Of a stretch of DNA of 64,000 bases, positions 36,818-56,404 are shown one piece after another; position 1 is the first letter of the stretch, and each line of letters starts with the position of its first letter. Location: NCBI RefSeq assembly GCF_040207125.1, contig NZ_CP157940.1, positions 62,001-126,000 on the forward strand, written 5' to 3'. Below the pieces are notes generated by a model. The model was not told the origin of the DNA and made no database searches. It saw only the letters and a list, made by a program, of their open reading frames with translations. The DNA is from Lacrimispora sp. BS-2 (GTDB lineage Bacteria > Bacillota > Clostridia > Lachnospirales > Lachnospiraceae). A program made the position numbers and the translations under genes.

Positions 36818-37132
36818 ATGTCAGAGAAAATTTGTTTAACAGATTTAAAGAGGGGACAAAAGGCGGTGATCGCAAGGCTTTCCGCCTATGATGATATGAG
36901 AAGGCGCCTGCAGGATATCGGCCTTATTGAGGGCACCACAGTGGAATGTCTGGGAAGAAGCCCTTTAGGGGATCCTACGGCATTTCTAATACGCGGTGCG
37001 GTGATCGCCCTTAGAAGCGAGGACTCAGGCCGTGTTCTGGTGCAGTCAAATGGAGAGGAAAGGGAGAAAAGCCATTATGGTGAGGAGATGGTGGTTGCGA
37101 ACCTTTCTCTGGAGGAAAAGGTATGGGATTAA
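36818..37132 (+). CDS. feoA: FeoA-domain protein of the ferrous iron transporter
   Basis: 104-residue SH3-like cytoplasmic protein required by FeoB for Fe2+ uptake. The FeoA fold runs from residue 5 to 75 (LTDLKRGQKAVIARLSAYDDM, LQDIGLIEGTTVECLGRSPLGDP, AVIALRSEDSGRVLV). An extra C-terminal tail of about 28 residues (NGEEREKSHYGEEMVVANL) is longer than usual. Its last 10 bases overlap the start of feoB. ATGGAGG is the ribosome site. No clear Fur box is visible upstream. Confidence 0.92.
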   Translation: MSEKICLTDLKRGQKAVIARLSAYDDMRRRLQDIGLIEGTTVECLGRSPLGDPTAFLIRGAVIALRSEDSGRVLVQSNGEEREKSHYGEEMVVANLSLEEKVWD

Positions 37133-38421
37133 GCAGGGAGTCAATGGGAATAAAGTCTGTGGACTGTGGTCTGGAAATCAAAAAGCGGAAGGAAGAGGAT
37201 AAGGTCATTGCGCTGGCCGGAAATCCCAATGTAGGCAAGAGCACGGTGTTTAATCAGCTTACAGGAATGAATCAGCATACAGGAAACTGGCCGGGAAAGA
37301 CGGTAGCCAATGCCCAGGGCTGGTGCACGGATGGCAGGCAGGGGTACGTTATGGTGGATATTCCGGGCTGCTATTCCCTGATGGCCCATTCCACGGAAGA
37401 AGAGGTGGCCAGAGACTTTATTTGCTTTGAGAACCCGGATGCAGTGGTGGTAGTCTGTGACGCCACATGTCTGGAGAGGAACTTAAATCTGGTATTGCAG
37501 ATCATGGAGGCCACGGCAAATGTTGTGGTATGTGTAAACCTTATGGATGAGGCGAAAAAGAAAAAGATTTTCCTGCGCCTTGATATGCTGGAACAGCGCC
37601 TGGGAGTCCCGGTTGCGGGGACGGCTGCCAGGAGCAATGAGGGACTGGATCAGATTTACACCGGCTTAAACCGCTGCATGGAAGAAAAAGAGGAGAACGC
37701 TGCTCTCATCCAATACCCCCAATATATTGAAGACGCCATTAAAAGGCTCCTTCCTGCAGTGGAAAATATGGCTCAGGGAAAGACAGAGGCCCGATGGCTG
37801 TGCGCCAGACTGCTGGATGCCAATGAGAATCTGATGGAAGCGTTAAGGAAATATCGAAAGGCTGTTGCAGAGTCCGAAGAAGTATCTGCCTGCCTTGCTG
37901 AAATTTGGGAAGAATGGAGGGAGGCCGGGATCAGCCAGGAGCAGGTAAGCGATGACATGGCCACTGTTTTCATAAATAAGGCGGAAGATTTATGCAGCGG
38001 TGTAGTGGAATATGAAAGCCAGACCTATGACCGGAAGGACCGGAAGCTGGATCAGCTTTTTACCAGCAAGGCCACGGGCTTTCCCATTATGTTCTTAATT
38101 CTCCTTGGAACGTTCTGGCTCACCATAACAGGAGCTAATTATCCCTCTGAGCTGTTAAGCAATGTGTTGTTTAAAGTGGAGGATTGGCTATTCGGGCTGG
38201 CTAACGCTGCCGGTGTACCGGTCATTCTGTCAGAACTGCTGATTCACGGCGTGTACCGGGTTCTGGCCTGGGTGGTATCGGTTATGCTGCCTCCTATGGC
38301 AATCTTTTTCCCGTTGTTCACTCTTTTGGAGGATTTTGGATACCTTCCCAGAGTGGCATTTAATTTAGACCGCTGCTTTAAAAAGTGTTCCGCCTGCGGA
38401 AAGCAGGCGCTTACCATGTGA
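37123..38421 (+). CDS. feoB: FeoB, N-terminal part (gene interrupted by mobile element)
   Basis: First 432 codons of the ferrous iron permease FeoB. The N-terminal G domain is complete: G1 GNPNVGKST, G3 DIPGCYSL, G4 NLMDE, G5 AARSNEG. Then come the helical linker and the first membrane helices (MFLILLGTFWLTITG, MAIFFPLFTLLEDFGYLPRV). The reading frame stops at ATG-TGA (38416-38421), where the TGA is formed by element sequence. The conserved continuation MGFGCN is found at 55559. Rejoining at CATGTG gives a 712-residue protein, usual for FeoB. As it stands, this part lacks most of the transport core and should be inactive. GGAGG lies 7 bases before the ATG. Confidence 0.93.
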   Translation: MGLSRESMGIKSVDCGLEIKKRKEEDKVIALAGNPNVGKSTVFNQLTGMNQHTGNWPGKTVANAQGWCTDGRQGYVMVDIPGCYSLMAHSTEEEVARDFICFENPDAVVVVCDATCLERNLNLVLQIMEATANVVVCVNLMDEAKKKKIFLRLDMLEQRLGVPVAGTAARSNEGLDQIYTGLNRCMEEKEENAALIQYPQYIEDAIKRLLPAVENMAQGKTEARWLCARLLDANENLMEALRKYRKAVAESEEVSACLAEIWEEWREAGISQEQVSDDMATVFINKAEDLCSGVVEYESQTYDRKDRKLDQLFTSKATGFPIMFLILLGTFWLTITGANYPSELLSNVLFKVEDWLFGLANAAGVPVILSELLIHGVYRVLAWVVSVMLPPMAIFFPLFTLLEDFGYLPRVAFNLDRCFKKCSACGKQALTM

Positions 38422-38437
38422 CAAAAGAAATCTATGC
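38401..38437 (+). other. attL, left junction of the element in feoB
   Basis: Left of the TG at 38417-38418 is feoB coding sequence (GGCGCTTACCA). To the right is the element arm TGACAAAAGAAATCTATGC (38419-38437), which pairs with the arm at the other end. Shared core CATGTG at 38415-38420. Confidence 0.85.
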
Positions 38438-38464
38438 TTTTTTGCTGGTTCTGCAATGATTGTC

Positions 38465-38504
38465 TTGACACGTTTTCGTGGAAATGATATAGTTACACCT
38501 GTAA
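38465..38504 (+). promoter_or_regulatory. Element promoter with BlaI-type operator
   Basis: TTGACA (38465-38470) and TATAGT (38488-38493), 17-bp spacing, reading into the ccdA-tlpA gene. TTACACCTGTAA (38493-38504) overlaps the -10 end and fits the TTACA-N2-TGTAA operator of BlaI/CopY-type repressors. Confidence 0.6.
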
Positions 38505-38592
38505 ACTGTAACTGAAAATAGTACAGAATCTTTGCTAAAAAAATAACAAAAATCAGTTAAAAATGGCGCAGCCTTAAAAGGAGGTACAGTAT

Positions 38593-39888
38593 TTGGGATT
38601 TTCTATTGACGTAAGTATTCCTATTTTAACCGTGTTTCTTCAGGGGATAATCAGCTTCTTTTCCCCCTGTGTGCTTCCCCTCATTCCGCTTTACATAGGG
38701 TATCTGTCGGGAGGAACGGGAGTCCGTGGGGAGGATGGGCGGATTTATTATAAACGCAGCAAGGTCATGGTTCACACCGTTTGCTTTGTTATTGGTGTCA
38801 GCTTTGCATTCTTCCTGCTGGGACTGGGGTTTTCTGCTCTTGGAAGCTTTTTTAAATCAAACCAGCTTCTTTTTGCAAGAGCAGGTGGAATCCTGGTAGT
38901 TTTATTCGGTTTATACCAACTGGGAGCCTTTGGGACCTCTAACCTGCTTGGAAAGGAACGCAGACTGCCATTTTCCCTTGATGTCCTGGCCATGTCTCCC
39001 TTAACTGCGCTTATAATGGGATTCACCTTCAGCTTTGCCTGGACGCCCTGTGTGGGTCCGGCCCTTGCCAGTGTACTTCTTATGGCCGCTTCGGCCTCCA
39101 CAAAGGCTATGGGCTTTGTCCTGATCGGAGTGTATACACTGGGATTTGTTCTGCCGTTTCTGGCAGTTGGATTCTTTACCACCACGGTGCTTGAATTTTT
39201 TAAATCTCACGGCAATATTACAAAATATGGGGTAAAAGTCGGAGGAGCTCTCATGGTATTTATGGGAATTTTAATGTTCACCGGAAAAATGAATGCGGTG
39301 ACCGGATACCTTTCCTCCATTCCTTCTCCATCGGCTACAGAATCAAGAGAGGCACCGGAGCCGGAAACAACTACAGAAGCAGGGAAAGAAGAATCCACAT
39401 CTGAGCAGGAAAAAACAGGGGAAACAGATGAAACCAAACAGCTTCTTCCGGCAGTTGATTTTACCTTAACAGACCAGTACGGCAATACACATTCTCTTTC
39501 TGATTATAAAGGAAAAACGATCTTTTTAAATTTCTGGGCAACCTGGTGTCCCCCGTGCAGGGCGGAGATGCCGGACATCCAGAAAATATATGAAACCGCT
39601 GATACAGAGGGAGATAATGCGCTGATCGTTCTGGGAGTGGCAGCCCCTAATTATGGCAGTGAAAAGGACGAAGCTGGAATTAAACAATTCCTGGAAGAAA
39701 ACGGATACACATATCCGGTTCTTATGGACACCAATGGGGATCTGTTTGACGCATATGGAGTATTCTCTTATCCGACCACGTTTATGATTGATAAGGATGG
39801 AAATGTATTTGGTTATGCAAGCGGCCAGCTTTCCGAAGATACCATGCGAAGCATCATTGAGCAGACCATGAAGGGGCAGCGGAAATAA
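38593..39888 (+). CDS. CcdA-TlpA fusion: membrane thiol transporter with thioredoxin-like domain
   Basis: 431 residues. The N-terminal half is a six-helix CcdA/DsbD-beta domain (FFSPCVLPLIPLYIGYLSGG, FSFAWTPCVGPALASVLLMA), each with the conserved Cys that shuttles electrons across the membrane. An acidic linker (about 245-285, EAPEPETTTEAGKEESTSEQ) leads to a C-terminal TlpA/ResA-like domain outside the cell with WCPPC at about 316-320. The pair should reduce disulfides on surface proteins. TTG start at 38593 with AAGGAGG 8 bases upstream; no ATG fits. First gene of the element, with its own strong promoter and BlaI-type site. Confidence 0.9.
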   Translation: MGFSIDVSIPILTVFLQGIISFFSPCVLPLIPLYIGYLSGGTGVRGEDGRIYYKRSKVMVHTVCFVIGVSFAFFLLGLGFSALGSFFKSNQLLFARAGGILVVLFGLYQLGAFGTSNLLGKERRLPFSLDVLAMSPLTALIMGFTFSFAWTPCVGPALASVLLMAASASTKAMGFVLIGVYTLGFVLPFLAVGFFTTTVLEFFKSHGNITKYGVKVGGALMVFMGILMFTGKMNAVTGYLSSIPSPSATESREAPEPETTTEAGKEESTSEQEKTGETDETKQLLPAVDFTLTDQYGNTHSLSDYKGKTIFLNFWATWCPPCRAEMPDIQKIYETADTEGDNALIVLGVAAPNYGSEKDEAGIKQFLEENGYTYPVLMDTNGDLFDAYGVFSYPTTFMIDKDGNVFGYASGQLSEDTMRSIIEQTMKGQRK

Positions 39889-39964: not shown

Positions 39965-40672
39965 TTATTGAGCAGAATTACTGGGGGTACTTTTTCCCCG
40001 GGCCTTGTGCAGGCGGTCCCGGTTGTAAATGAGATGAAGAGTCATGGCATCCTGTGCGGCAATGGCATCATTATTCTTCATGGCATTTACAATCGCCATA
40101 TGTGTTCTTATGGTTTCTTCTTTTAACTCGGAATGGGTAATGTCAATAAACATATCAATCGCATGCATGATAAGAGGCTCAAGCTGAGGGACGATGACAT
40201 TTCCGCTGATCTCTGCGATCCTGGCATGGAAGAGAGCATCGGCTTCTGAGTGGGACTTTCCTGCGTCATAGCATTCCGCCACCCGGTTTGCCAGGTGGAG
40301 AAGCTCTTCGGCCTGAGCCGGGGTGGCCTTTGATGCGGCCAGAGCGGCAACCCTTGGCTCGATCATCATGCGGAATTCCAGAAGATCAGCTACCAGTTTT
40401 TCTTTATCTTCTATAAATGTGAACCCCAGGGGATCATCAGCTACGCCTGTATTATGGCAGACGTAAATGCCGGATCCCTGCTGAACCGTCAGAATGTTGC
40501 GCGAAACAAGCGCGCGTATGGCTTCCCGCAAGGTGCTTCGCCCCACTCCCATAAGAGAGGAAAGCGTGGTTTCATTGGGAAGCTGTGCGCCTTCCTTTAA
40601 TTTGTTATCAATAATGTATTTGATGATTCCTTCGGCTGTTGTATCGGCAAGAGATTTATGTGATGAGGTCAT
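39965..40672 (-). CDS. GntR/FadR-family regulator of the sugar-acid genes
   Basis: 235 residues. N-terminal winged helix (residues about 10-75; EGAQLPNETTLSSLMGVGRSTLREAIRALVS in part) and C-terminal all-helical FCD ligand domain (DLLEFRMMIEPRVAALAA, metal-binding His residues in ALFHARIAEISGN). FCD regulators commonly sense sugar acids. It is divergent from the dehydratase-permease operon. Three copies of an ATCAGATGA-type motif in the shared gap are candidate operators. AAAGGA precedes the ATG. Lies inside the feoB element. Confidence 0.88.
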   Translation of the reverse strand: MTSSHKSLADTTAEGIIKYIIDNKLKEGAQLPNETTLSSLMGVGRSTLREAIRALVSRNILTVQQGSGIYVCHNTGVADDPLGFTFIEDKEKLVADLLEFRMMIEPRVAALAASKATPAQAEELLHLANRVAECYDAGKSHSEADALFHARIAEISGNVIVPQLEPLIMHAIDMFIDITHSELKEETIRTHMAIVNAMKNNDAIAAQDAMTLHLIYNRDRLHKARGKSTPSNSAQ

Positions 40673-40949: not shown

Positions 40950-42665
40950 ATGGTTAGTCAGGAGATTCGAAAGCTGGCTCCGGAAATGGACCCTCTCCGG
41001 ATGGGCATGGGCTGGAAGGCCGAAGATCTTTCAAAAATGCAGATCATGGTGGAGAGTACCTTTGGTGACAGCCATCCGGGAAGCGCTCACCTGCTGGAAC
41101 TGGTGGCCAGTACCGTAGATGGGGTGAAGGAGAAGGGAGGAAAAGCGGCAAGATATTTTACGACAGATATCTGCGATGGAATGGCTCAGGGCCATGACGG
41201 CATCAACTATTCCCTGGTTTCCAGGGATACGATCTGTAATATGATTGAAATCCACGCAGGCGCAACTCCCTTTGACGGCGGGGTATTTATTTCAAGCTGT
41301 GATAAAGGGGTGCCTGCACATCTTATGGCAATCGGCCGGGTGAATATGCCTTCCATTCTGGTGACCGGAGGTGTTATGGATGCCGGCCCGGATCTTCTTA
41401 CCCTGGAACAGATCGGAAAGTACAGCGCCATGTGCCAGAGAGGTGAACTGGAGCCGGAAAAGCTGGAATATTATAAGCAGCATGCCTGTCCATCCTGCGG
41501 GGCCTGTTCTTTTATGGGAACGGCATCAACCATGCAGGTCATGGGAGAGGCCCTTGGCCTTATGCTTCCAGGATCCGCTCTTATGCCGGCAACCTGCCCG
41601 GATCTAAAAGAGATGGCTGCAAGAGCCGGCCATCAGATCATGGAGCTTGCAGCAAAAGGAATAAGGCCAAGAGATATGGTTACCATGGAATCCTTTGAGA
41701 ATGCTATTATGGTCCATGCTGCCATATCCGGCTCAACCAATTCCCTGATACACATTCCTGCCATTGCTCATGAATTCGGTCTGGAAATAGACTCTGAAAT
41801 GTTTGACAGGCTGCACAGAGGCGCCCATTACCTTCTTGACATCCGGCCAGCCGGAAAATGGCCGGCTCAGTACTTCTATTATGCAGGCGGAGTACCGAGG
41901 ATTATGGAAGAGATCAAGTCAGTGCTTCATTTGGATGTAATGACAGTGACAGGAAAGACTCTGGGTGAAAATCTTGAGGCGCTGAAACAAAATGGCTTTT
42001 ATGACAAATGCGATGAGTATTGCGCAAAGGTGGGAGTGAAAAAGGAAGAAATAATCCGGCCTTTTGAGGAGGCGATTGGAACCGATGGTGCAATTGCCAT
42101 TTTAAAAGGAAACCTTGCACCGGAAGGTGCGGTCATCAAGCATACCGCATGTCCAAAGGAGATGTTCCAGGCAGTGTTAAATGCACGTCCTTTTGACAGC
42201 GAGGAAGAAGCGATCGACGCGGTTTTAAACCACCGTGTAAAGCCCGGGGATGCTGTGTTCATCCGGTACGAAGGCCCAAAGGGAAGCGGAATGCCGGAAA
42301 TGTTCTACACGTCTGAGGCCATCTCCTCAGATAAGGAGCTTGGACGTACCATTGCCCTGATTACGGATGGTCGTTTTTCCGGGGCTTCCACCGGTCCTTC
42401 CATCGGCCATGTTTCACCTGAGGCAGCAGAAGGCGGGCCCATTGCCCTGGTAGAAGAAGGGGATATGATCCAAATCGATATTCCCAATAGATTCCTGGCA
42501 ATCGTAGGCGTAAAAGGCCAGCGGAAAACAGAAAGCGAAATGGAAGAGATTCTTAAGGAACGGCGGGAAAGATGGCAGCCAAGACCATCAAAATACCCGT
42601 CAGGAGTATTGAAAATATTCAGTGAACGTGCAGTATCTCCAATGAAGGGCGGATACATGGATTGA
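40950..42665 (+). CDS. IlvD/Edd-family dehydratase, probably sugar-acid dehydratase
   Basis: 571-residue iron-sulfur dehydratase. The cluster-binding cysteines are in FISSCDKGVPAH and HACPSCGACSFMGTASTM, with another Asp/Cys block at TTDICDGMAQGHDG. The C-terminal swivel domain has LITDGRFSGASTGPSIGHVSPEA. The family includes dihydroxyacid, phosphogluconate and sugar-acid dehydratases. With a GntP permease and FCD-type GntR as partners and no ilv gene nearby, an aldonate such as gluconate or galactonate is the likely substrate. No kinase or aldolase to finish the pathway lies in the element. AAGGAG before the ATG. Confidence 0.85.
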   Translation: MVSQEIRKLAPEMDPLRMGMGWKAEDLSKMQIMVESTFGDSHPGSAHLLELVASTVDGVKEKGGKAARYFTTDICDGMAQGHDGINYSLVSRDTICNMIEIHAGATPFDGGVFISSCDKGVPAHLMAIGRVNMPSILVTGGVMDAGPDLLTLEQIGKYSAMCQRGELEPEKLEYYKQHACPSCGACSFMGTASTMQVMGEALGLMLPGSALMPATCPDLKEMAARAGHQIMELAAKGIRPRDMVTMESFENAIMVHAAISGSTNSLIHIPAIAHEFGLEIDSEMFDRLHRGAHYLLDIRPAGKWPAQYFYYAGGVPRIMEEIKSVLHLDVMTVTGKTLGENLEALKQNGFYDKCDEYCAKVGVKKEEIIRPFEEAIGTDGAIAILKGNLAPEGAVIKHTACPKEMFQAVLNARPFDSEEEAIDAVLNHRVKPGDAVFIRYEGPKGSGMPEMFYTSEAISSDKELGRTIALITDGRFSGASTGPSIGHVSPEAAEGGPIALVEEGDMIQIDIPNRFLAIVGVKGQRKTESEMEEILKERRERWQPRPSKYPSGVLKIFSERAVSPMKGGYMD

Positions 42666-42683: not shown

Positions 42684-44051
42684 ATGAATGATGCTTTTAC
42701 AGCTGATCCAACAAGGCTTGTAATTGCCGCAGTATGCGGTTTGGCAATTTTGTTATTCTTGATAACAAAGGTAAAGTTTCAGGCATTTATTGCAATTTTA
42801 ATATCAGCTCTGGCAATCGGTTTAATAGCAGGAATGCCGGCAGAACTGATTACCAGCACAGTGACAAAGGGAATGGGGGAAACTTTAAAAGGAATTGCAC
42901 TGCTTATTGGACTTGGGTCCATGTTCGGCGCAATCCTGGAAATCTCAGGAGGTGCGGAACGGGTGGCCGTCACCATGATGAGCACCTTTGGCGAAAAGCG
43001 GGCCCCGTGGGCTTTAGGGATCACGGGCATGGTGGTTGCCATTCCTGTGTTCTTTGATGCAGGACTGATTATCCTGATTCCCCTTGCTTTTTCTCTTGCC
43101 AAGCGGTGCAGAAAATCGGTCATGTTTTATGTAATACCGCTTTTAGCTGGTTTGGCGGTTGGACATGCGTTTATTCCTCCAACTCCTGGTCCGGTTCTGG
43201 TTGCCAATATGTTAGAGGTTGACCTTGGGATTGTAATTGGCCTTGGAATTATCTGCGGTGCCTTTTCCATGGTGGCAGCAGGCCCGATCTGGGGGAAATA
43301 CTGTGGAAGCCATTACGATGTGCCGGTTCCTGCCCAGTACGCAGAAACAAAGGAGTTTGACATTGATAAGATGCCTTCCTTTGGTACGGTAGTGACTATT
43401 ATTTTGATTCCGCTGATTTTGATTATTGTAAATTCCATTCTTGGCGTAATTCCGAAAGGCAGCAGTGTGGACTTTTTAAGACCAATATTCAGCTTCCTGG
43501 GAACGCCGTTTGTGGCTCTTTTACTTGCCACCATTGCATCAGTATTTCTCCTTGGCACCCGTCACGGCTATACCAAGGAGGAACTGGAAAAGGTAATGAC
43601 AAAATCCCTGGAGCCAACAGGCATGATTATGTTGGTGACGGCAGGGGGCGGTGTTCTTCGATACATGCTCCAGGATTCCGGTCTTGGAACGATTATCGGC
43701 AATGTGATCGGAGCGTCCTCCTTCCCCCTCATTGTAGTTGCATTCCTGATTGCATGTGCGGTTCGTGTTTCCGTAGGCTCTGCAACAGTTGCAATGACAA
43801 TGGCTGCCGGTATTATCGCTGCCATGCCTTCAGTCTCCGGTTTGTCACCTTTATACAAGGCATGTCTGGTCATGGCCATTGCAGGTGGATCTACCGTATG
43901 CTCCCATTTTAATGACTCAGGTTTCTGGCTTGTGAAATCATTATGCGGGCTGGATGAAAAGACAACCTTTAAAACGTGGACTATTATGGAGACCATTGTG
44001 GGATTGACCGGTTTTGGCGTTGCATTAATCATTACATTATTTATTGGCTGA
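42684..44051 (+). CDS. GntP-family gluconate/sugar-acid permease
   Basis: 455-residue secondary transporter with about twelve to fourteen membrane helices. Typical GntP segments: GMGETLKGIALLIGLGSMFGAILEISGGAERVA and GHAFIPPTPGPVLVANMLEVDLG in the N-terminal half; GGGVLRYMLQDSGLG, RVSVGSATVAMTMAAGI and CSHFNDSGFWLVK in the C-terminal half. Co-transcribed with the dehydratase (18-bp gap, GGAGGAG ribosome site). Imports the substrate of the dehydratase (inference). Ends at a hairpin terminator. Confidence 0.92.
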   Translation: MNDAFTADPTRLVIAAVCGLAILLFLITKVKFQAFIAILISALAIGLIAGMPAELITSTVTKGMGETLKGIALLIGLGSMFGAILEISGGAERVAVTMMSTFGEKRAPWALGITGMVVAIPVFFDAGLIILIPLAFSLAKRCRKSVMFYVIPLLAGLAVGHAFIPPTPGPVLVANMLEVDLGIVIGLGIICGAFSMVAAGPIWGKYCGSHYDVPVPAQYAETKEFDIDKMPSFGTVVTIILIPLILIIVNSILGVIPKGSSVDFLRPIFSFLGTPFVALLLATIASVFLLGTRHGYTKEELEKVMTKSLEPTGMIMLVTAGGGVLRYMLQDSGLGTIIGNVIGASSFPLIVVAFLIACAVRVSVGSATVAMTMAAGIIAAMPSVSGLSPLYKACLVMAIAGGSTVCSHFNDSGFWLVKSLCGLDEKTTFKTWTIMETIVGLTGFGVALIITLFIG

Positions 44052-48000: not shown

Positions 48001-51000
48001 CTGTCCCTGGCAGCAATGAATATAAAGCCGGATATAATGTAAAGATTCAATATGACCCGGCGCCCTCAAAAGCGGGATATGAGTTCCTGGGATGGGATGA
48101 GGATAAAGAGGCAGGATCACCGGCGTATAAAGTGGGAAGCAGCGCATTCCTTACTATGCCTGACCATGATGTGATCTTATATGCAATATGGAGGCCATCG
48201 GAAGCAACTGGATTTAAAGTGAATCATTGGCTGCAGAGATCAAATACAGCAGGAGATAAGAGTGATGATTTTGACCTGACAGATGAATCTCCGGAAATAA
48301 AGTATAAGGCTACGGAAAGTAAAGTGTATGATAAGGATTATGCAAAAACCATCAGCGGTTACATGTATGAGGAAGGAATCATTGATAATCTGACCGAAGC
48401 AGTTGTAAACGGAAACGGTACTACAGAATTAAATCTTTATTATCTCAAGAAATTGACCGTAAAGATAACCGCAGAATCAAAGACTAAAACCTACGATGGC
48501 AAATCGCTAACAGGCGGGTATCAGATCGATGGGGAGCTTCGTGCCGGTGATAAAGAAGAAGTGGCTGTAAGCGGCTCTATTACGGATGCGGGAGAGGAAG
48601 CAAACAAAATAGTAAGCTGCAAAATTAAGGATTCCAACAATGTGGATGTCACTGATAAGTATGTAATATCAACGGTTAATGGAACCCTGAAGGTAGACAG
48701 GGCAACTGCTAAAATAACAGCAAAGAGCGAAACAAAGAAATATGGAGAACCGAACCCGGAGCTGACCTATACGCCTGAAGATTTCTTAAACGGAGATAAA
48801 CCAGAGACTCTGGGCATAACGGTAAATTTGAAGACAGAAGCCAATGCGGCCAGCAAGAAGGGCACTTATGCGATTACCTTTGATTCTCCGGTTACTCAAA
48901 CAGACAACTATAATATTGCATATGTAGGCGGAACCTTAACTGTAACTAAAGCAGATGTAACAGTGACGGCCAATGATATTTGGAAGCAATATGGTAAGGA
49001 TATGCCGGAGCTGACTTATACGGCAGCCGGATTTGTTAACAATGAATCCCCTGAAAGCCTGTACCTTAACTTAAAGCTTCAAACTGATGCGGTAAAGACC
49101 AGTGGAGCAGGAACGTTTGATATTACCTTTGCGGATAAAAAGGAAGCAGACAATTATAATATTACCTATGTAGATGGTAAGCTGCATGTAACTCCGAATC
49201 TGGATCATATCATCATTAAGGCATCAGATGCAATGAAGGTGTATGACGGAAAAGAATTGACCAAAGCTTCGTACAGTATGACAGGACGTCTTGCAGACGG
49301 AGACCGTATCAAAGAGGTCATAATGAAAGAGGATTCCAGGACTACAAATGCAGGAACAAAGGAAAACGGCATTGATCATGTAGTCATTGTAAATGAAAAT
49401 GGTGACAATGTGACCTCCTGCTATGAAAACTTAAGGCTGGCTGACGGCCGGCTGATTGTGATAAAGGCACCTGTATTTGTAATGGCTAAGCCAGCATACA
49501 AAGCATACGGTGATGTCAATCCGAAGCTGGCTTATGAGGCTTCAGGCTTTGTAAACGGAGAGACGCCGTCCGGCCTGGGCATTGAACCAAAGCTGAAAAC
49601 CAATGCAGATGAGAAGAGCCCGGCAGGTATCTATTCAATCACCTTTGATGAACCTGTAACGAGTACAGCCAATTATTCTATTATCTATATACCCGGATTT
49701 CTGGTTGTAAAGCGGAATGCATGGGATATTGTGATTACGGCAAAGAGCGGAACCCAGGTATATAATGGAACTGCACTGACAGAAAACGGCTATGAAGTAA
49801 GCGGCCAGCTTGCGTCCGGTGATTATGTTTCCAGTGTGGAGATGACAAAGGAATCTGTCATAACAGATGCAGGAACAAGAAAGAACGAGATCAAGTCAGT
49901 AGTGATCAGAAATGCGTCAGGTAAAGATGTGACGAAGAACTACAGCAGTTTAAAGACCGTAGCAGGAACCCTTACGGTGAGCAAGGCGCAGGTGACCGTA
50001 ACGGCTGAAGATAAGGCAAAGAACTATGGAGAAGAAATACCGGTTCTTAATTATACGGTGAAAGGCCTTGAAAATGGAGAAACTTTTGAAGGGCTTCATG
50101 TGAGGGTAGAGCCTTATACAAAAGCGACAAAGTCCAGCCCTGCCGGAGATTACGTGATTTCTTTTAAAAATAAGGTAGAAGAAACGGAGAATTATAAGAT
50201 CACCTATGAAAACGGAAACTTAAGTGTAGGAAAGAATGGGGAAGTCCTTGTAATTAAGGCTTTGGATGCTGATAAGCCATACGACGGAACAGAACTTACC
50301 AGGGCGGAGTACAGCATAACGGGAAATCTTGAAGATGGGGATTATATTGATAAGGTCGTCATGACAGCAGATTCCAGGATAACAGATGCAGGCACCCAGA
50401 GGAATAAGATAGACTATGTTGTCATCAGGAATGGAGCCGGCCTTGATGTAACAGAAAGTTATGCAGGACTGAGGATAGAAGAAGGAACCCTGACAGTAAG
50501 CAAAGCCCAGATCACAGTGACGGCTTTGGATAAGACGAAGGGGTATGGAGAGAAAGTACCGGACTTAGAGTATCAAGTGAAAGGTCTTAAAAATGAGGAA
50601 ACTCTTAAAGACATCGGCGTAAAGGTGACACTGTCAACAAATGTGACAAAGACCAGCCTTGCCGGAGCTTACGGTATTACTTTTAAGGATCAGGAAAGAG
50701 AAACGAAGAATTACAGGATCAGCTATGAAGATGGAACTCTGATCGTGGAAAAGAACGGAGCGGCCATAGTAATTACGGCATTAGACGCAGAGAAGATATA
50801 CGACGGCAAGGAATTGACCAGGGCTGAGTACGGCATGGCGGGAAGTCTTAGAGATGGAGACCATATTAATAAGGTTGTCATGACAGAGGACTCCAGGATA
50901 ACAAATTCAGGAACACAGAAGAACAGGATTGCCTCCGTCCTCATCAAAAATGCGGCTGGCCAGGATGTGACGGACAGCTATGCAGGACTGGTAACAGAAG

Positions 51001-51593
51001 ATGGTACCCTGACCGTTCATAAGACAAATATGATAGTAACTGCGGCAGATAAATCAAAGATCCAGGGCAGTTCCAATCCGGAATTAACTTATACTATCCA
51101 GGGACTTGTAAATGGAGAAACCCCGGAAGGGCTGGGTCTTAAACCACAGCTAAGGACAGAGGCAGCCGGAAACAGTGCGGATGGAAAATATGCTATCACA
51201 TTTGCCGATCCGGTTTCAACGATAGCAAACTACAATATTTCTTATGCAGAAGGCGTAATAACAGTAGAGAGAAGAAATACAGGCGGAAGTTCAGGCGGCA
51301 CAGGCGGAGGCAGCGGCAGCGGTTCATCACCTGATCCCAGCCGGCCATATACGCCAGGAGGTCCTGGAGACAATATGGTAACGGTTGAACAGGAACCTGT
51401 CCCACTTGCTGATTTACCCAATGGCGGAAATGCGGCAGACAATCTCCTTATTATTGATGACGGCAGCATCCCTCTGGCAGGACTTCCAAAAACTGGTGAC
51501 AGAGGGCCGATTCAGGGTTTTGCAGCAATTGTATCAGGAATTTTGTTCGCTGTATACGCAGCTGTCAGCCGTATGAGGAAAGAAGAAAAGTAG
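45009..51593 (+). CDS. Large LPXTG-anchored surface protein with MBG and InlB-type repeats
   Basis: 2194 residues. Signal peptide 1-32 (LAGILAFCLTMTSFNMVSWA). Residues 204-311 are nine copies of a 12-residue acidic repeat (ETADEETEVNQD type). Two Listeria-Bacteroides repeat units start near 797 (VTFDSNGGNGGPEKV) and 987 (LIYNPNGGNTSVPGS), each ending with YYAIW or LYAIW. From about 1149 to 2090 run MBG-type beta domains (TYDGK..., KKYGEPNPELTY, YNITYVDGKL patterns). A Gly-Ser linker precedes LPKTG (2159-2163), a hydrophobic helix and a basic tail, the sortase signal. It would be a cell-wall fibre for adhesion; the ligand is unknown. AAGGAG before the ATG. Element cargo. Confidence 0.9.
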   Translation: MKGLKRKFRQSLAGILAFCLTMTSFNMVSWADVEKAFENENAIFLINGDDLRDSAQAAIDSGETFHVEDLGLGDRDLSLKREYEKLLGGGMVYEFLPAYDMDEEANADGAELRMFIRVPDNHDGYRLTGNEKVIFLYVNESESKITFRSDIDGYLTQKVSVKAFSQNAAVVPGEGANGGSGVNPDGEEPGESGANQEETTAVDETAGNETEVNQGETSTNETEINQGETADEETEVNQDETADDETEVNQDETADEETEVNSGETADEETEVNSGETAAEETKVNPGETANDETQVNSGETAADEAPASSGGSSADDGAAKASEEGKAVNNSRQDTKNNDSQPDHDNAASKDQASADVQASISRHVISVLSSSENSAFKEESDEEKKDFSYTESTVSEADKAESGGTSGGKAYGAVLLDESYYAKAYVATLNQLHVDVSAEGYGVTYAVEPVGTAHAQGPEAVAEDGTLSFTVTPQIGYEISGVTVNGETATADEVENTDASEHGKRRYTITGVTEEQEVVITTAATGDHPEFKFEKAINGVTVNLHAEQGILPAGTEARIIEVTDKVAEAVKKKTAEEAAAESSVNDVLAYDIKLYYKGEELDNSWSDQGYVNVTFSGALIKEKSLAADSVEIIHMSTDVEVAAKTVEKISAEEVTGLEAVAEPIAVDGGKQVSQVSFEAEHFSVYTITFSGKAVLKVHVMDIKTGNEIGTTAGSLTQDGGNGQEYTASQLASLILNKMGEDVKRQYSFSKATLAGGKELDSFYYSSGKLYTTKIWNLYFNQITGDVYFWYHSFNVTFDSNGGNGGPEKVAVNGTFVLPDPSTLGISKNGRIFAGWSTDKTGRGSVFVSGIENTITKDTTYYAIWIDKNGEDNTNVAYFYIRIDGEIQYEPAGYSNNYYYPLESAKTLQGKLRTPAAVNNNLDNVAANLQVIPTDEAIKAVLNKGGVSYDPNTQHILWYVIKYRDKDNNKTYWNVDGIVRDNEKYELIYNPNGGNTSVPGSNEYKAGYNVKIQYDPAPSKAGYEFLGWDEDKEAGSPAYKVGSSAFLTMPDHDVILYAIWRPSEATGFKVNHWLQRSNTAGDKSDDFDLTDESPEIKYKATESKVYDKDYAKTISGYMYEEGIIDNLTEAVVNGNGTTELNLYYLKKLTVKITAESKTKTYDGKSLTGGYQIDGELRAGDKEEVAVSGSITDAGEEANKIVSCKIKDSNNVDVTDKYVISTVNGTLKVDRATAKITAKSETKKYGEPNPELTYTPEDFLNGDKPETLGITVNLKTEANAASKKGTYAITFDSPVTQTDNYNIAYVGGTLTVTKADVTVTANDIWKQYGKDMPELTYTAAGFVNNESPESLYLNLKLQTDAVKTSGAGTFDITFADKKEADNYNITYVDGKLHVTPNLDHIIIKASDAMKVYDGKELTKASYSMTGRLADGDRIKEVIMKEDSRTTNAGTKENGIDHVVIVNENGDNVTSCYENLRLADGRLIVIKAPVFVMAKPAYKAYGDVNPKLAYEASGFVNGETPSGLGIEPKLKTNADEKSPAGIYSITFDEPVTSTANYSIIYIPGFLVVKRNAWDIVITAKSGTQVYNGTALTENGYEVSGQLASGDYVSSVEMTKESVITDAGTRKNEIKSVVIRNASGKDVTKNYSSLKTVAGTLTVSKAQVTVTAEDKAKNYGEEIPVLNYTVKGLENGETFEGLHVRVEPYTKATKSSPAGDYVISFKNKVEETENYKITYENGNLSVGKNGEVLVIKALDADKPYDGTELTRAEYSITGNLEDGDYIDKVVMTADSRITDAGTQRNKIDYVVIRNGAGLDVTESYAGLRIEEGTLTVSKAQITVTALDKTKGYGEKVPDLEYQVKGLKNEETLKDIGVKVTLSTNVTKTSLAGAYGITFKDQERETKNYRISYEDGTLIVEKNGAAIVITALDAEKIYDGKELTRAEYGMAGSLRDGDHINKVVMTEDSRITNSGTQKNRIASVLIKNAAGQDVTDSYAGLVTEDGTLTVHKTNMIVTAADKSKIQGSSNPELTYTIQGLVNGETPEGLGLKPQLRTEAAGNSADGKYAITFADPVSTIANYNISYAEGVITVERRNTGGSSGGTGGGSGSGSSPDPSRPYTPGGPGDNMVTVEQEPVPLADLPNGGNAADNLLIIDDGSIPLAGLPKTGDRGPIQGFAAIVSGILFAVYAAVSRMRKEEK
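45618..45941 (+). repeat. Nine 36-bp tandem repeats in the adhesin gene
   Basis: Units start every 36 bp from 45618 and encode ETAxxETEVNxx. The middle four units are nearly identical in DNA, indicating recent expansion and likely copy-number variation. Coding repeats, not CRISPR. Confidence 0.85.
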
Positions 51594-51641: not shown

Positions 51642-51737
51642 AGGTAAACGGTACCCCTTGTCAAGGCAGTAAAAAAGAGAGTCAATATCCACACTCTTTC
51701 TACAGCCTTGCTATGGGGGGACCGTTTACCTTTTTTT
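51642..51737 (+). repeat. 90-bp inverted-repeat element acting as adhesin terminator
   Basis: Outer arms AGGTAAACGGT (51642-51652) / ACCGTTTACCT (51721-51731), continuing inward with CCCC / GGGG, CAAGGC / GCCTTG and AAAGAG / CTCTTT pairs, so about 40 bases per arm pair imperfectly. Seven T residues follow. Its size suggests a MITE-like or IS-end remnant now used as terminator. Confidence 0.6.
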
Positions 51738-51901
51738 ATAGACCCCAAATGGGGAGCTGCGACGGAAACAGAACGGCAGTTATGAGGATATATCCCTGCG
51801 GCGTAAGAATCGTATTCTATGAAAAAATTAAATGGTGCAAAATAGGAGGACACGCAGGTGGATTTCAGATATACTTAGAAAGAGAAAAGGAGGCAAACCT
51901 T

Positions 51902-52372
51902 ATGAAACATACAGCATATATTAAAACCGTCTTAGGGCCGATTAAAATATCAGAAGTGGATGGTTTTATTACTGAGTTATTTTTTGCAAAAGATATCCAT
52001 GAAATCCCCGGAGAACATAAAACACCTCTGTTGGAGAAAGCAGAAAAGCAGATTAAGGAATATATGGATGGGACGGGCAGGGTATTTGACTTGCCGTTTG
52101 CTGCAAAAGGGACAGAGTTTCAGAAGACCGTATGGGAGGCCCTGCACAGAATTCCATATGGAGAAACGCGAAGCTATAAACAGATCGCAGAACAGATCGG
52201 GAGGCCGGATGCATCCAGGGCTGTGGGCATGGCAAACAGCAAAAATCCGATACTGATCCTGACACCGTGTCACCGGGTAGTGGGTTCGGATGGCAAATTA
52301 ACAGGCTATGCAGCCGGCTTGGAAGTCAAGGAACAATTATTGGAATTGGAACTGTCACATGCAGGCTGTTGA
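51902..52372 (+). CDS. ogt: Methylated-DNA-protein-cysteine methyltransferase (Ogt/AdaB)
   Basis: Suicide repair protein that moves the alkyl group of O6-alkylguanine in DNA onto its own cysteine. The active-site motif TPCHRVVGSDGKLTGYAAG carries acceptor Cys123. The recognition helix segment GETRSYKQIAEQIGRPDASRAVGMANSKNP supplies the tyrosine and arginine finger. 156 residues, normal. ATG 51902 follows AAGGAGG; earlier in-frame codons overlap the terminator hairpin. First gene of an ogt-alkD-ada set inside the element, transcribed in one direction. Confidence 0.94.
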   Translation: MKHTAYIKTVLGPIKISEVDGFITELFFAKDIHEIPGEHKTPLLEKAEKQIKEYMDGTGRVFDLPFAAKGTEFQKTVWEALHRIPYGETRSYKQIAEQIGRPDASRAVGMANSKNPILILTPCHRVVGSDGKLTGYAAGLEVKEQLLELELSHAGC

Positions 52373-52395: not shown

Positions 52396-53166
52396 ATGGA
52401 AAAATGGAATAAAAAAAAGCTGGCGCCGGTTGAAAAGGTGCAGGAGGCTTATAACAGGATCACAGATCCTCACGTAATGATGGGGGATAATATAAAACAG
52501 CAATTAAAAGAACTGGCAGAGGAAGACTACCGGGTGTTCGCCTCCGGTCTGCTTCCTAATACTGACAATGTATTAGGCATCCGTCTTCCCATGCTGCGTA
52601 AAATAGCAAAGCAGATTGCAAGGTCGGATTGGCAGGGATATCTGGAGACAGCAAGGGAGGATTCCTTTGAGGAGATCATGCTCCAGGGAATGGTGATCGG
52701 CTGTGCGGCATGTCCGGCAGAAGAACGGTTATTCTATATTAAGGAGTTTGTTCCTAAAATCCAAAACTGGTCGGTGTGCGACAGTTTTTGTGCCGGGCTC
52801 AAATTCACCAGGAATAATTCAGAGCTGGTATGGGATTTTCTCAAGCCCTATTTTAAATCAGAACGGGCATTTGACCTCCGTTTTGCAGTTGTGATGCTTA
52901 TTTTCTACTATATTCAGGAAGCAGCCATCAGTGAAGTGCTGACTGTCCTGGATAACGTGCGGCACGATGACTATTATGTAAAGATGGCTGTGGCATGGGC
53001 AATATCCATGTGTTATGTTCAGTTTCCGGGGCAAACCATGATTTATCTGAAAAACAACAGTTTGGATGATTTCACCTATAACAAAGCATTACAGAAAATC
53101 ACCGAATCCTTAAAAGTAGATAAAGAAACAAAAAAGCAGATCCGGGCAATGAAACGGAAGCCATGA
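52396..53166 (+). CDS. DNA alkylation repair protein, AlkD-like HEAT-repeat glycosylase
   Basis: 256 residues of tandem HEAT-like helices, resembling the AlkC/AlkD family that excises 3- and 7-alkylpurines. The catalytic pattern of AlkD (Trp and Asp four residues apart, and a later Arg) can be placed on NWSVCDSF near residue 130 and FDLRFAVVMLIFYY near 165. ATG 52396 has only a weak ribosome site, and translation could start later at MMGDNIKQQL. It lies between ogt and ada, in keeping with an alkylation-damage operon. Confidence 0.85.
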   Translation: MEKWNKKKLAPVEKVQEAYNRITDPHVMMGDNIKQQLKELAEEDYRVFASGLLPNTDNVLGIRLPMLRKIAKQIARSDWQGYLETAREDSFEEIMLQGMVIGCAACPAEERLFYIKEFVPKIQNWSVCDSFCAGLKFTRNNSELVWDFLKPYFKSERAFDLRFAVVMLIFYYIQEAAISEVLTVLDNVRHDDYYVKMAVAWAISMCYVQFPGQTMIYLKNNSLDDFTYNKALQKITESLKVDKETKKQIRAMKRKP

Positions 53167-53244: not shown

Positions 53245-53808
53245 ATGCTGACAGAGGAGGAAAAATGGAAGGCAGCGCTGGAATGTGATGCGTCTTATGA
53301 CGGCAGATTTTATTACGGAGTAAAAACAACAGGAATTTTCTGCCGTCCTTCCTGTAAATCCAAAAGTCCCAAACGTGAAAATGTGGAATTCTTTGATACG
53401 GCGGAGCAGGCACGTGAAAGCGGGCTTCGCCCCTGTAAGCGCTGCCGGCCGGATTTGCTGGAATTTCACCCGCAGAAAGAGACTGCGGAAAAAATCAAAG
53501 TAGTTTATGATCTTTATTATTCAGACCAGGATCGCTTAAAGGAGGAACTAAAAAAGCTTGGGCTAAGCAGAAACAGAATCCTCCAGGTGTTTCAGAATCA
53601 ATATGAAAAGACCCCGGCAGAGTATTTAAACGGTTTACGTGTAGCCAGCGCAAAAAAGCTTTTAGCCAGCACCGCGGATAATATTTTGCAGATTGCTTTA
53701 CAAAGCGGCTTTGAAAGTCTTTCAGCTTTTTACACACAGTTTAAGCGGATAACAGGTGTTTCTCCCAGGGAATACCGGGAGCGTTTTACTGGAAAGAAGG
53801 CTGATTAG
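53245..53808 (+). CDS. Ada-type methylphosphotriester sensor and AraC-family activator
   Basis: 187 residues equal to the N-terminal half of E. coli Ada, without the O6-methylguanine domain, which is separate here (ogt). The zinc site is Cys33 (methyl acceptor), Cys37, Cys64 and Cys67 in GIFCRPSCKSKSP and PCKRCRPD. The AraC helix-turn-helix pair covers about 85-185 (LGLSRNRILQVFQNQYEKTPAEYL, ILQIALQSGFESLSAFYTQFKRITGVSPREYR in part). Methylation of Cys33 should turn it into an activator of the ogt-alkD-ada genes (from the family). AAAGAAGGTG precedes the ATG. Confidence 0.92.
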   Translation: MLTEEEKWKAALECDASYDGRFYYGVKTTGIFCRPSCKSKSPKRENVEFFDTAEQARESGLRPCKRCRPDLLEFHPQKETAEKIKVVYDLYYSDQDRLKEELKKLGLSRNRILQVFQNQYEKTPAEYLNGLRVASAKKLLASTADNILQIALQSGFESLSAFYTQFKRITGVSPREYRERFTGKKAD

Positions 53809-53864: not shown

Positions 53865-53939
53865 AGTATATGGTACAAACCTGCCGGAATAAGATTTTCC
53901 AGGAGGTGTAAGAGATGGATCCATTGGCTCAGGCAGCCT
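53865..53939 (+). repeat. 75-bp direct repeat, copy 2 (recombinase start region)
   Basis: Partner of 44154-44228 (60 of 75 identical). In this copy ACCTGCCGGAA (53879-53889) can pair with TTCCAGGAGGT (53897-53907) at 9 of 11 positions, which would bury the ribosome site of the recombinase. Confidence 0.75.
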
Positions 53940-55546
53940 GCTACAGTGGGGCGCTTTACATGCGCTTATCAAAAGACGACGATGGCACAGGGGAAAGCTC
54001 CAGCATCAGCACCCAGCGGAAGATGCTTCGTTCCTATGCCGTGGAAAACGGCTTTGAAATATACGGGGAGTATGTGGATGACGGCTACAGCGGAACTAAT
54101 TTTGACCGCCCGGCTTGGAAACGGCTGTTGAAGGATATACAAGCAAGGAAAGTAAATCTGGTGATCACCAAGGATCTGTCCCGTCTTGGAAGGGATTATA
54201 TTATGACTGGACAGCTTACCGAAATCTATTTTCCTTCCAGAGGGATCCGATACATAGCAGTCAATGACGGGTATGATTCCAACAGTCCGTGGAGCGATAT
54301 TGCACCCTTTAAGAACATTGTAAATGAGATGTATGCCAGAGATACTTCGAAAAAAATCCGCAGCGCATTTCAGACCAAAATAAAAGAGGGGGCGTTTATC
54401 GGAAATTTTGCTCCCTATGGCTATCAGAAGGACCCGGAGGATAAAAACCATCTTCTCGTTGATCCCGTGGCAGCTGTCATTGTCCGGGAAATATTTGAGA
54501 GGGCAGAGCAGGGAGAGGCTCCAGCCCGGATCGCTGAGGTTTTAAATAAGAGAAAGGTACTGACTCCGGCCGTGTACCGCTGCGCCGGGCGGCCTTATTT
54601 AAATCCTGATGATTATTCCAAAAGAAAGGAATGGACATCAGGCGCGGTCTGCAAGCTGTTAAGCAATCCCGTATATTTAGGCCACATCGTACAGGGTAAA
54701 ACCGTGAAGGTTTCCTTTAAAAGCAATGTGACCCTTCGAAAGCCCAGGAAAGAGTGGGTAGTCGTTGAGGATATGCATGAGCCCCTTGTTTCCCGGGAGA
54801 CTTTTGAACGGGTAAAAAGACGGAGCGTTTCCCGGAAAAACACGGCGGATACCGGTTTTACCAATATTTTCTCCGGATTTGCCAGGTGCAGAGACTGCGG
54901 CAGGAATATGTCGTCCACAGGAGCCGTGGGGAAAACGGGATCCCGCAAGCTGGTGTGCGGGGGGTATAAGCTGTACGGAAAAAGGGAATGTACGAATCAC
55001 TTTATGGATTACGAACTTTTATATAAAGTGGTGCTTCAGGAAATCCGCTGCCTGCTTACCTTTACAGAAGGGGAAAAGGAAGAACTGGAAGAAGCCCTTC
55101 TGGAACCTTTTTGCCCGAAAGAAATGACAGGTGAAGAAAGAGCGGCGGTTTCACTTAAAAACAGGGAAAAAGAACTTGAGAGCATAATAAAAAAACTCTA
55201 TGAAGACCGGGTAAACGGAAGAATCGGTGAGGATCGGTTTTATAAAATGCTGGATTCCTGTGAAAAGGAGGAAAGAGAGATTGAAGAATGTCTGTCCCTG
55301 TTGGAAAGACCCTGTTCTTTGATCCAAAAAGGAGAGCCTGCCGTTGCCGGTTTGTTTTCCAGCCTGTTAGAGGAAATAAGCCAGGAAAAAGGAATTTCCT
55401 CCGATTTGCTGGGGAAATTTATAGACAGAATTGAAGTTTTTCAGAGCTGTGAAGGGGAAGAGGGGAGAAAAGGACATAAACTCCAGAGGATCCGGATCTA
55501 TTACAGGGTGTTGGCTCCGGAAAAAGAAGGGAATGGTTTGGCATAA
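53915..55546 (+). CDS. Large serine recombinase of the feoB element
   Basis: 543-residue site-specific recombinase. The resolvase catalytic domain (about 12-165) has nucleophile Ser19 in LYMRLSKDDD and the arginine motif DLSRLGRDYI. A recombinase domain (about 180-290; GAFIGNFAPYGYQKD, SGAVCKLLSNPVYLGHIVQGK) follows. A zinc ribbon (CRDCGRNM ... VCGGY ... CTNHF, about 325-365) precedes a coiled coil (about 405-470) used for synapsis control. The gene lies 12 bp from attR, and its stop codon is inside the attP arm. This is the normal gene-site arrangement for an integrase acting on its own ends. AGGAGGTG precedes ATG 53915. Presumed to excise and restore feoB. Confidence 0.93.
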   Translation: MDPLAQAACYSGALYMRLSKDDDGTGESSSISTQRKMLRSYAVENGFEIYGEYVDDGYSGTNFDRPAWKRLLKDIQARKVNLVITKDLSRLGRDYIMTGQLTEIYFPSRGIRYIAVNDGYDSNSPWSDIAPFKNIVNEMYARDTSKKIRSAFQTKIKEGAFIGNFAPYGYQKDPEDKNHLLVDPVAAVIVREIFERAEQGEAPARIAEVLNKRKVLTPAVYRCAGRPYLNPDDYSKRKEWTSGAVCKLLSNPVYLGHIVQGKTVKVSFKSNVTLRKPRKEWVVVEDMHEPLVSRETFERVKRRSVSRKNTADTGFTNIFSGFARCRDCGRNMSSTGAVGKTGSRKLVCGGYKLYGKRECTNHFMDYELLYKVVLQEIRCLLTFTEGEKEELEEALLEPFCPKEMTGEERAAVSLKNREKELESIIKKLYEDRVNGRIGEDRFYKMLDSCEKEEREIEECLSLLERPCSLIQKGEPAVAGLFSSLLEEISQEKGISSDLLGKFIDRIEVFQSCEGEEGRKGHKLQRIRIYYRVLAPEKEGNGLA

Positions 55547-55575
55547 ATTTCCGCTGTCATGTGCATGGGGTTTGG
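55541..55575 (+). other. attR, right junction of the element in feoB
   Basis: Element arm GCATAAATTTCCGCTGTCA (55541-55559), then TG (55560-55561), then feoB sequence TGCATGGGGTTTGG. Shared core CATGTG at 55558-55563. Confidence 0.85.
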
Positions 55576-56404
55576 ATGCAATGCAGCAGGAATCATTGGC
55601 TGCCGGATCATCGATTCTCCAAGAGAACGGCTGATTGCCATGATCACCAATAATTTTGTGCCCTGCAACGGACGCTTCCCTACCATGATCGCCATTATTA
55701 CCATGTTCTTTGTAGGAGGAGCTTCAGGAGCGTTTTCTTCCATATTATCGGCGGCTATCCTATCAGGTGTAATCATCCTTGGGATTTTTATGACCCTTCT
55801 CATTTCAAAGCTGCTGTCAGCCACCATATTAAAGGGGATTCCCTCCTCTTTTACCTTAGAACTGCCGCCTTACCGGAGACCTCAGATCGGCAAGGTTATC
55901 GTTCGTTCCATATTTGACCGTACCCTGTTTGTATTAGGCCGTGCTGTTTCCGTAGCGGCCCCGGCAGGCCTGGTCATCTGGCTTTTAGCCAATATAACGG
56001 TTGGAAATGCTACCCTGCTGGCCCACTGTTCCGGTTTTCTGGATCCTTTTGCCAGGCTCATGGGCTTAGATGGAGTCATCCTTCTGGCATTTATCCTGGG
56101 GTTTCCGGCCAATGAAATCGTGGTTCCCATTATCATCATGTCCTATATGGCGGAAGGAAGCATTCGGGATATCAGCGATTTATCCGTCTTAAAAGAGCTT
56201 CTTGTAGCAAATGGCTGGACCTGGATAACTGCGGTCAGCACCATGCTGTTCTCCCTGATGCACTGGCCCTGCTCCACCACCTGCCTTACCATCAGGAAAG
56301 AGACACAGAGCATAAAATGGACGGCTGTTTCCTGGCTGGTACCCACTGTGACCGGATTTGTGGTATGCTTTTTATTCACAACCATTGCAAGGGTTTTCCT
56401 CTGA
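55559..56404 (+). CDS. feoB: FeoB, C-terminal part (gene interrupted by mobile element)
   Basis: Remaining 280 codons of FeoB after the shared Met. Begins CMGFGCNAAGIIGCRIIDSPRERL, the conserved core segment that in intact FeoB follows the first Gate motif. It continues with the second Gate and membrane helices (FVGGASGAFSSILSAAILSGVIILG, GFPANEIVVPIIIMSYM) to a normal C-terminus. The frame is uninterrupted, so no decay has begun and excision would yield a working gene. ATG 55559 has no ribosome site, so separate translation is unlikely. Downstream is the small ferredoxin-fold gene of the same operon. Confidence 0.93.
   Translation: MCMGFGCNAAGIIGCRIIDSPRERLIAMITNNFVPCNGRFPTMIAIITMFFVGGASGAFSSILSAAILSGVIILGIFMTLLISKLLSATILKGIPSSFTLELPPYRRPQIGKVIVRSIFDRTLFVLGRAVSVAAPAGLVIWLLANITVGNATLLAHCSGFLDPFARLMGLDGVILLAFILGFPANEIVVPIIIMSYMAEGSIRDISDLSVLKELLVANGWTWITAVSTMLFSLMHWPCSTTCLTIRKETQSIKWTAVSWLVPTVTGFVVCFLFTTIARVFL

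Follow-up and report, generated by a model that had tools for sequence, protein, structure and literature searches.

The locus considered here raises the question of why a gene for a ferrous iron transporter should be kept in two pieces on either side of a long DNA element, and whether those pieces are ever put back together. The gene, feoB, lies behind feoA in a 64-kb stretch (G000:C1:62001-126000; "the window" hereafter means the whole of this stretch) of a 4.49-Mb single-contig Lacrimispora genome, and is interrupted at residue 432/433 by an element of 17,143 bp that carries its own large serine recombinase (LSR). We consider it likely that this segment is a skin-like (sporulation-intervening) element in an apparently sigma-K-controlled feoAB, and that its excision in the mother cell rebuilds a sporulation FeoB. 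What is established at the level of sequence is the anatomy of the split gene, the in-frame rejoining of its pieces, the purifying selection on them, the co-inheritance of element and gene, the existence of rejoined proteins, and a strict sigma-K pattern upstream.

The 5' part of feoB ends, and the 3' part begins, at the same ATG of a shared CATGTG, the two copies of which are 17,143 bp apart, and excision at these cores would take out precisely that length. Once joined, the gene reads ...GKQALTMCMGFGCNAAG... in frame, the 432 + 281 residues sharing one Met to give 712, with the GTPase and helical domains (PF02421, PF17910) supplied by the 5' part and the Gate and FeoB_C domains (PF07670, PF07664) by the 3' part. 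The junction of the excised circle would form a near-palindrome around TG, in which 15 of 20 pairs match, or 15 of 19 without the central T/G pair. In a control, 19 pairs were scored, the central one among them; the junction then scores 14, and 3 of 2000 random 56-mers from the window do at least as well. The stop codon of the recombinase, LSR-B (53915-55546), sits within the right arm, and both the CATGTG core and the attP arms are conserved in other Lacrimispora species. The initial annotation of this stretch had proposed that two open reading frames (ORFs; 37123-38421 and 55559-56404) join in frame at CATGTG into 712 residues, that the circle junction is a near-palindrome of 15 of 19 pairs centred on TG, and that a recombinase ends inside one arm, all of which is borne out by the ORFs, the domains, the join and the control.

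The age of the split can be judged from a sample of 25 Lacrimispora genomes, in which the loci were examined with tblastn. The same feoB is in pieces in 22 of them; 20 of these were read on both sides of the interruption described above (site B), and the other two, G007 and G001, are known from separate contigs. The three genomes outside this set are G010 (67% complete), G017 (82% complete, and carrying pieces of LSR-B) and G011, which has an intact FeoB from a different lineage (51% identical in the 5' part and 73% in the 3' part), and in G003 and G004 a second, intact FeoB lineage is found alongside the split gene. Distances between the LSRs agree with those between the FeoB 3' parts (Mantel rho 0.67, permutation p 2e-4, 20 genomes), the two trees agree broadly, and the synonymous divergence (dS) of the window's genome from G005, G006, G019, G020, G008 and G009 is 0.50-0.88 for the LSR and 0.49-0.83 for the 5' part of feoB. 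Given this matching divergence, the element has been inherited vertically in Lacrimispora, together with the gene, and the split is old. A recent insertion, which had at first been allowed for, is ruled out by a split that is common to the genus.

Site B is not the only interruption, as this one feoB is divided into two to four pieces by up to three elements, at sites A, B and C, each of which carries an LSR. Site A holds a second element in 14 genomes, near codon 53-55 and within the GTPase domain (about 2.4 kb in G014 and G003, 5.1 kb in G022), while a third element is found at site C, about 40 codons past site B, in nine genomes; the one LSR-A and the one LSR-C that were scanned both have resolvase, recombinase and zinc-ribbon domains. 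The crossovers at sites A and C were set by pattern, and wherever both flanks were at hand the pieces rejoin in frame, in 11/11 cases at site A, 20/20 at site B and 8/8 at site C, the last including G004, which, so set, joins to CNGRFATM and is counted as in frame (site A in G001, G002 and G007, and site C in G001, were left out for want of a flank). As a separate observation, four Hungatella FeoBs of 709-718 aa (P0083, P0084, P0106 and P0107) have no match to MMR_HSR1 (P-loop) and may be cut at site A.

Selection on the pieces was measured by the ratio of non-synonymous to synonymous divergence (dN/dS) in 8 N (5' part), 13 C (3' part), 9 N2, 9 C2 (the last two from multiply split species) and 20 LSR sequences, excluding the N2 of G002, G022 and G023 (an insertion in a variable linker) and the LSRs of G001, G017 and G024 (truncation or frame breaks). 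Pairs without a finite dS, or with a dS of 0.02 or less, were dropped, which kept 28/28, 78/78, 28/36, 35/36 and 69/190 pairs, respectively. The medians are 0.103 for N, 0.062 for C, 0.057 for N2 and 0.070 for C2, at a median dS of 0.26-1.36 in the piece sets, and the window's own copy gives 0.091-0.122 for the 5' part (against seven genomes) and 0.025-0.091 for the 3' part (against 12). The pieces stranded by the additional elements have pooled values of 0.085 (N1, 14 sequences) and 0.010 (C1, 8 sequences), and C1, the 40 codons between two elements, shows 451 synonymous vs 32 non-synonymous differences summed over pairs. Intact FeoBs, in three usable comparisons, lie at 0.05-0.14 (N 0.139 and C 0.069 in one pair, C 0.051 in another); one of the four pairs in the second intact control set was usable, the others having minus-strand loci left unturned or a saturated dS. 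The feoB pieces tested have no stop or frameshift. The pieces are under strong purifying selection, which rules out a decayed pseudogene and agrees with the initial annotation, where neither half had shown decay.

Such selection on a 40-codon fragment between two elements is hardly possible unless the pieces are rejoined, and the sequences make it very probable that the split feoB is regularly reconstituted by excision. The halves might instead be made as separate polypeptides which assemble into a FeoB with no rejoining of the DNA, given that each part is a long open frame in the species with element B only, and that the joined DNA was not found in the window's own genome as assembled. This is very unlikely, as N1 and C1 of the species split at A and C, with about 55 codons (the cut lying within the GTPase domain) and about 40 codons, respectively, are too short for subunits, and the 3' part begins 12 bases after the recombinase stop without a clear ribosome site.

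A survey of other genera covered 396 family genomes, 104 of which have a match to this feoB, and yielded 66 places with nearly the whole 3' part at an identity of at least 55%; 60 of these lie in open frames of at least 448 aa, five (in G285, G067, G226, G192 and G418) are interrupted at the codon of site B, and the remaining one (G294) is contiguous but frame-broken. Outside Lacrimispora, then, this feoB is mostly intact. In the named records L102 and L103, the 5' part ends at the same codon beside an LSR, and the LSRs at that codon in other genera include relatives of LSR-B (49-55% identical) as well as distant ones (24-26%). Loci L101/L176, L102, L103, L174 and L177-L179 all have an other-genus feoB cut at this MCMGFGCN codon, in part by the distant LSRs, and the LSR of L101/L102 lies 5' of the cut and is oppositely oriented. 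In G060, from a related genus (L180, L181), feoB is cut about 190 codons past site B by about 70 kb of DNA that ends in three LSR stretches.

Distant LSR elements at one codon, together with the G060 insertion at a different site and the three other, uninterrupted FeoBs of the cell, which could replace the split one, would suit the idea that feoB is merely a hot spot for LSR elements and its pieces are dead remnants. We give this idea hardly any weight, as it is already contradicted by dN/dS values of 0.01-0.10 in the piece sets, the 40-codon fragment included, as well as by the intact reading frames of the pieces tested and the existence of joined copies.

These joined copies emerged when the 5' part by itself served as the query against public protein data, in which rejoined FeoBs of 715 aa are present. 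For example, P0003 (named Lacrimispora sphenoides) is identical to the two halves found in G019, a split genome, at 435/435 and 281/281 residues, and P0006, encoded on a contig of 2606 bp whose source is given as "lgn", is identical to those of G005, also split, again at 435/435 and 281/281. An intact relative, P0017 (716 aa), is 94% identical to the split P0018. Traces of excision may also be seen in the assembly of G007, where contig C82 starts exactly at the B core, contig C6 stops exactly at the A core, and contig C137 (5799 bp) consists of element B with 21 bases of feoB at either end, one stretch from each half and each containing the core; the right 21 bases overlap C82. Breaks of this kind are expected of an assembler that is given both split and joined molecules, which makes them indirect evidence. 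A pattern for the joined site, with one mismatch allowed, was matched in the genus only by G011, whose intact FeoB is of the other lineage. A split shared by all relatives with no empty site had been named at the outset as telling against excision; nearly all species are indeed split, but joined copies (P0003, P0006) exist.

The identity of intact and split forms, and the pair formed by P0017 and P0018, could also be expected if the elements were mobile and lineages alternated between intact and re-invaded feoB, with selection acting in the intact phases only. We regard such alternation as quite unlikely, since the divergence of LSR and FeoB agrees, six pattern matches in viral contigs yielded no confirmed LSR relative, and the best-ranked phage protein is 38.8% identical, with 0 of 1021 records reaching 60%. 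A phage origin is rejected on these viral results and on the lack of any attP match in viral contigs.

As to when excision would take place, the region upstream of feoA was searched for a strict sigma-K pattern, [AC]AC[AC]-N14/15-GCATAnnnTA, the exact consensus of which is that of B. subtilis. The pattern is present in 23/23 loci (22 genomes, G018 counted twice) with a variable spacer, the window's form being AACC-N15-GCATATGTTA in a block conserved throughout the genus; the background is 35 matches in 1.71 million positions (loci of at least 5 kb, feoA loci included). G018 (G018:C8:569000-588500, L116) has two tandem copies of the 5' feoB pieces together with the pattern. In other genera, strict matches precede this feoB in 5/9 loci read, and the intact second lineage has them in 0/3 loci. 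Sigma-K promoters are described as having a -35 AC and a shared -10, and the published sigma-K regulon of C. difficile includes feoA and feoB, with a ratio of 0.05 in a sigK mutant and a sigma-K promoter (PMC3789822); a feo operon of C. perfringens falls in the cluster most up-regulated in sporulation (PMC4433262).

The setting is that of an endospore former in which sigK itself is split. Separate 5' and 3' pieces of sigK occur in 22/25 genomes; in all eight loci read, an LSR immediately precedes the 3' part, and a mother-cell-type site, AC...GCATAAAAT, lies upstream of sigK in 7/7 loci shown of the eight fetched. SpoIVA is encoded in 24/25 genomes, and yabG, which was meant as a sigma-K control, was found in 0/25. 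The sigK elements (G000:C1:1271800-1279000, L228; L229-L235) carry, in 6/8 loci, cargo named from its sequence as [NiFe] hydrogenase-like subunit or maturation genes. A mother-cell programme is the simplest reading of the feoAB pattern, the C. difficile and C. perfringens data, the split sigK and SpoIVA, and the reconstitution of feoB is probably specific to the mother cell, with mother-cell development, rather than iron or oxygen, as the likely trigger. The precise excisability, retained function and analogy with skin that were originally suggested are thus upheld by the rejoined proteins, the purifying selection and the sigma-K-type promoter pattern of feoAB.

A reversible switch in growing cells, in which the LSR excises and reinserts the element by growth phase or stress to give FeoB-on and FeoB-off cells, is improbable but the most serious of the alternatives. 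In its favour, LSRs are able to integrate DNA as well as to excise it, there are intact copies at 100% protein identity, G007 resembles a mixture, and the SpyCI islands in mutL offer a precedent (PMC4129442). This alternative is opposed by the sigma-K pattern on feoAB, and also by the ten proteins of the element, among which no replication gene was recognised, so that growth would dilute out any excised circle.

The features of the locus are collected in Table 1. The 20 elements compared measure 4.8 to 20 kb, and their cargo varies apart from LSR-B (in 20/20, frame-broken in G024; median dN/dS 0.155) and ccdA-tlpA. The promoter-like site of the cargo has TTGACA in all 20, with TATAGT or TATATT as the -10, and an operator-like TTACA...TGTAA inverted repeat at the ccdA-tlpA promoter (38494-38516) is similar in many of them. 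The gene for the 2194-aa MBG-repeat protein holds 36-bp direct repeats and has a relative in G009 alone among the 20. A small ORF (47-52 aa) was found in 21/21 genomes in which the element B region was searched; the 47-aa protein has no significant Pfam or NCBIfam match, and 101 of 158 candidates in the protein database are relatives, the named ones being hypothetical proteins of Lacrimispora and close kin. The two leader copies of the window form a direct repeat, 80% identical and 9.7 kb apart, and a conserved leader of about 42 bp is common to the small ORF and the LSR; where cargo lies between these two genes, as it does in the window and five relatives, the leader stands ahead of both. The leader motif GTATAYNGTACRARC occurs in 22/25 genomes, with 27/31 matches falling at feoB element B, and may represent a sigma-E-like or extended -10 promoter. 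A Pfam scan recognised no phage structural or replication gene among the ten proteins of the window's element, which by this content is not a prophage, and no Rfam match at gathering score was found at window positions 30-60 kb. Upstream of feoA, on the minus strand, lie two genes (34473-36655) that by their look are presumably a BlaR1/BlaI-type pair.

Table 1. Coordinates (window positions) of feoAB, the crossover sites and the genes of the inserted element.
Feature	Position	Strand	Details
Sigma-K-type promoter pattern of feoAB	36750..36778	+	AACC (-35), GCATATGTTA (-10)
feoA	36818..37132	+	overlaps feoB start; PF04023 E=1.4e-17
feoB 5' part, codons 1-432	37123..38421	+	stop lies within element; PF02421, PF17910
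Left crossover core CATGTG (attL)	38415..38420	+	
Left attP arm	38421..38440	+	element-internal; kept in other Lacrimispora
Promoter-like site of cargo	38465..38493	+	TTGACA-N17-TATAGT, just within element; read from sequence
ccdA-tlpA-like thiol-disulfide fusion	38593..39888	+	conserved cargo; DsbD_TM + Redoxin; in 20/20 elements compared
GntR/FCD regulator	39965..40672	-	variable cargo; in 7/20 elements
IlvD/Edd dehydratase	40950..42665	+	variable cargo; in 7/20 elements
GntP permease	42684..44051	+	cargo
75-bp leader repeat, copy 1	44154..44228	+	leader seen in 21 genomes
47-aa conserved small protein	44204..44347	+	candidate recombination directionality factor (RDF)
2194-aa MBG-repeat protein	45009..51593	+	cargo; PF18676, 6 stretches
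Methylguanine-DNA methyltransferase	51713..52372	+	cargo; PF01035
DNA alkylation repair enzyme	52396..53166	+	cargo; PF08713
Ada-type zinc domain + helix-turn-helix protein	53245..53808	+	cargo; PF02805, PF12833; in 7/20 elements
Leader repeat, copy 2	53865..53939	+	extends into recombinase start
Large serine recombinase B (LSR-B)	53915..55546	+	PF00239, PF07508, PF13408, PF14287
Right attP arm	55538..55557	+	element-internal; includes LSR stop codon
Right crossover core CATGTG (attR)	55558..55563	+	
feoB 3' part, codons 432-712	55559..56404	+	281 aa; PF07664, PF07670

In the mechanism that we propose, LSR-B would recombine the CATGTG cores, freeing a circle of 17,143 bp and restoring an in-frame FeoB of 712 aa, aided by the 47-aa protein as an RDF, by analogy with CD1234 of the C. 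difficile skin element (PMC5025042). Excision would most likely occur in the mother cell during sporulation; given that this cell is terminal, the germ line would keep the element and its ccdA-tlpA cargo. The species with elements A and C would need two more LSRs to act on the same gene. The mother-cell timing, the role of the small protein and a function of this FeoB in sporulation are what we infer from the locus and its setting. It had been suggested that, were excision controlled, iron uptake would be switched by rearrangement as sigK is by skin, of which the likeness to skin is upheld; the element is not a switch of all iron uptake, because one FeoB of four is affected and the three others are uninterrupted. 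More tentatively, and with less likelihood than not in our estimate, the arrangement might act as an AND gate at the DNA level, with FeoB made only after up to three separately controlled excisions, and with the loss of vegetative genes (ccdA-tlpA and the [NiFe]-hydrogenase-like cluster of the sigK element) as a programmed metabolic change of the mother cell.

Several observations weigh against this account. P0003 and P0006 may be excision products or may come from element-free strains, between which proteins cannot tell; the left 21 bases of C137 occur in no other G007 contig; and the joined-site pattern was found in 0/22 split genomes as assembled. LSR-A matches over only 318 of 465 aa in G016, while in G024 LSR-A is in pieces and LSR-B also frame-broken. 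For site A, no N1+N2 protein more than 79% identical to the G014 lineage was found among the 120 listed of 1665 matches (candidates up to 1.75x the query length). The comparison with CD1517 of C. difficile and with the C. perfringens operon takes both as putative orthologues of this FeoB. Finally, the leader before the small ORF and the LSR is no clear mother-cell promoter, and the sigma-E pattern used had no match upstream of spoIVA in 10/10 control regions, so that the leader could not be judged by it.

No paper on a split feoB was found in the literature searched, which does not include most subscription papers or any bioRxiv preprint. In endospore formers, regulatory and spore-surface genes are known targets of programmed excision. 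If the proposed reading is true, a metal transporter that a whole genus carries in two to four pieces would be a new class of such target, would provide a natural set of recombinases on one gene, and would allow a direct test of why mother cells would need their own ferrous iron uptake. As feoB is split, this FeoB appears as fragments in databases.

One of the nearest known systems is the skin element in sigK of C. difficile (CD1231 as the LSR, CD1234 as the RDF; PMC5025042), which shares with the feoB element an LSR directly before the 3' part and, as is proposed here, an element-encoded partner and the rejoining of a mother-cell gene. By contrast with skin, the gene interrupted here encodes a ferrous iron transporter, the window's element has no recognised phage genes, and excision and the RDF role are predictions from sequence. 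The SpyCI islands in mutL likewise tie gene function to the state of excision; unlike the feoB element, in which no replication gene was recognised, they are described as replicating as episomes and reinserting with growth phase (PMC4129442). The heterocyst elements in nifD, fdxN and hupL resemble the feoB element in splitting genes, in having a recombinase within the element and little conserved cargo and, on the proposed reading, in a terminal cell type (PMC4874684), with the difference that the host here is an endospore former and not a cyanobacterium; the NCBIfam cut-off for XisF, 375 bits, was missed by LSR-B (94.0), LSR-A (140.1) and LSR-C (126.4). On the other hand, the gin element in gerE of Bacillus cereus ATCC10987 is, according to PMC5595907, a non-phage element with a serine recombinase and a partner protein, GirX, as is proposed here, but gin brings together three recombinases in one element, whereas feoB distributes up to three elements, with one LSR each, over a single gene.

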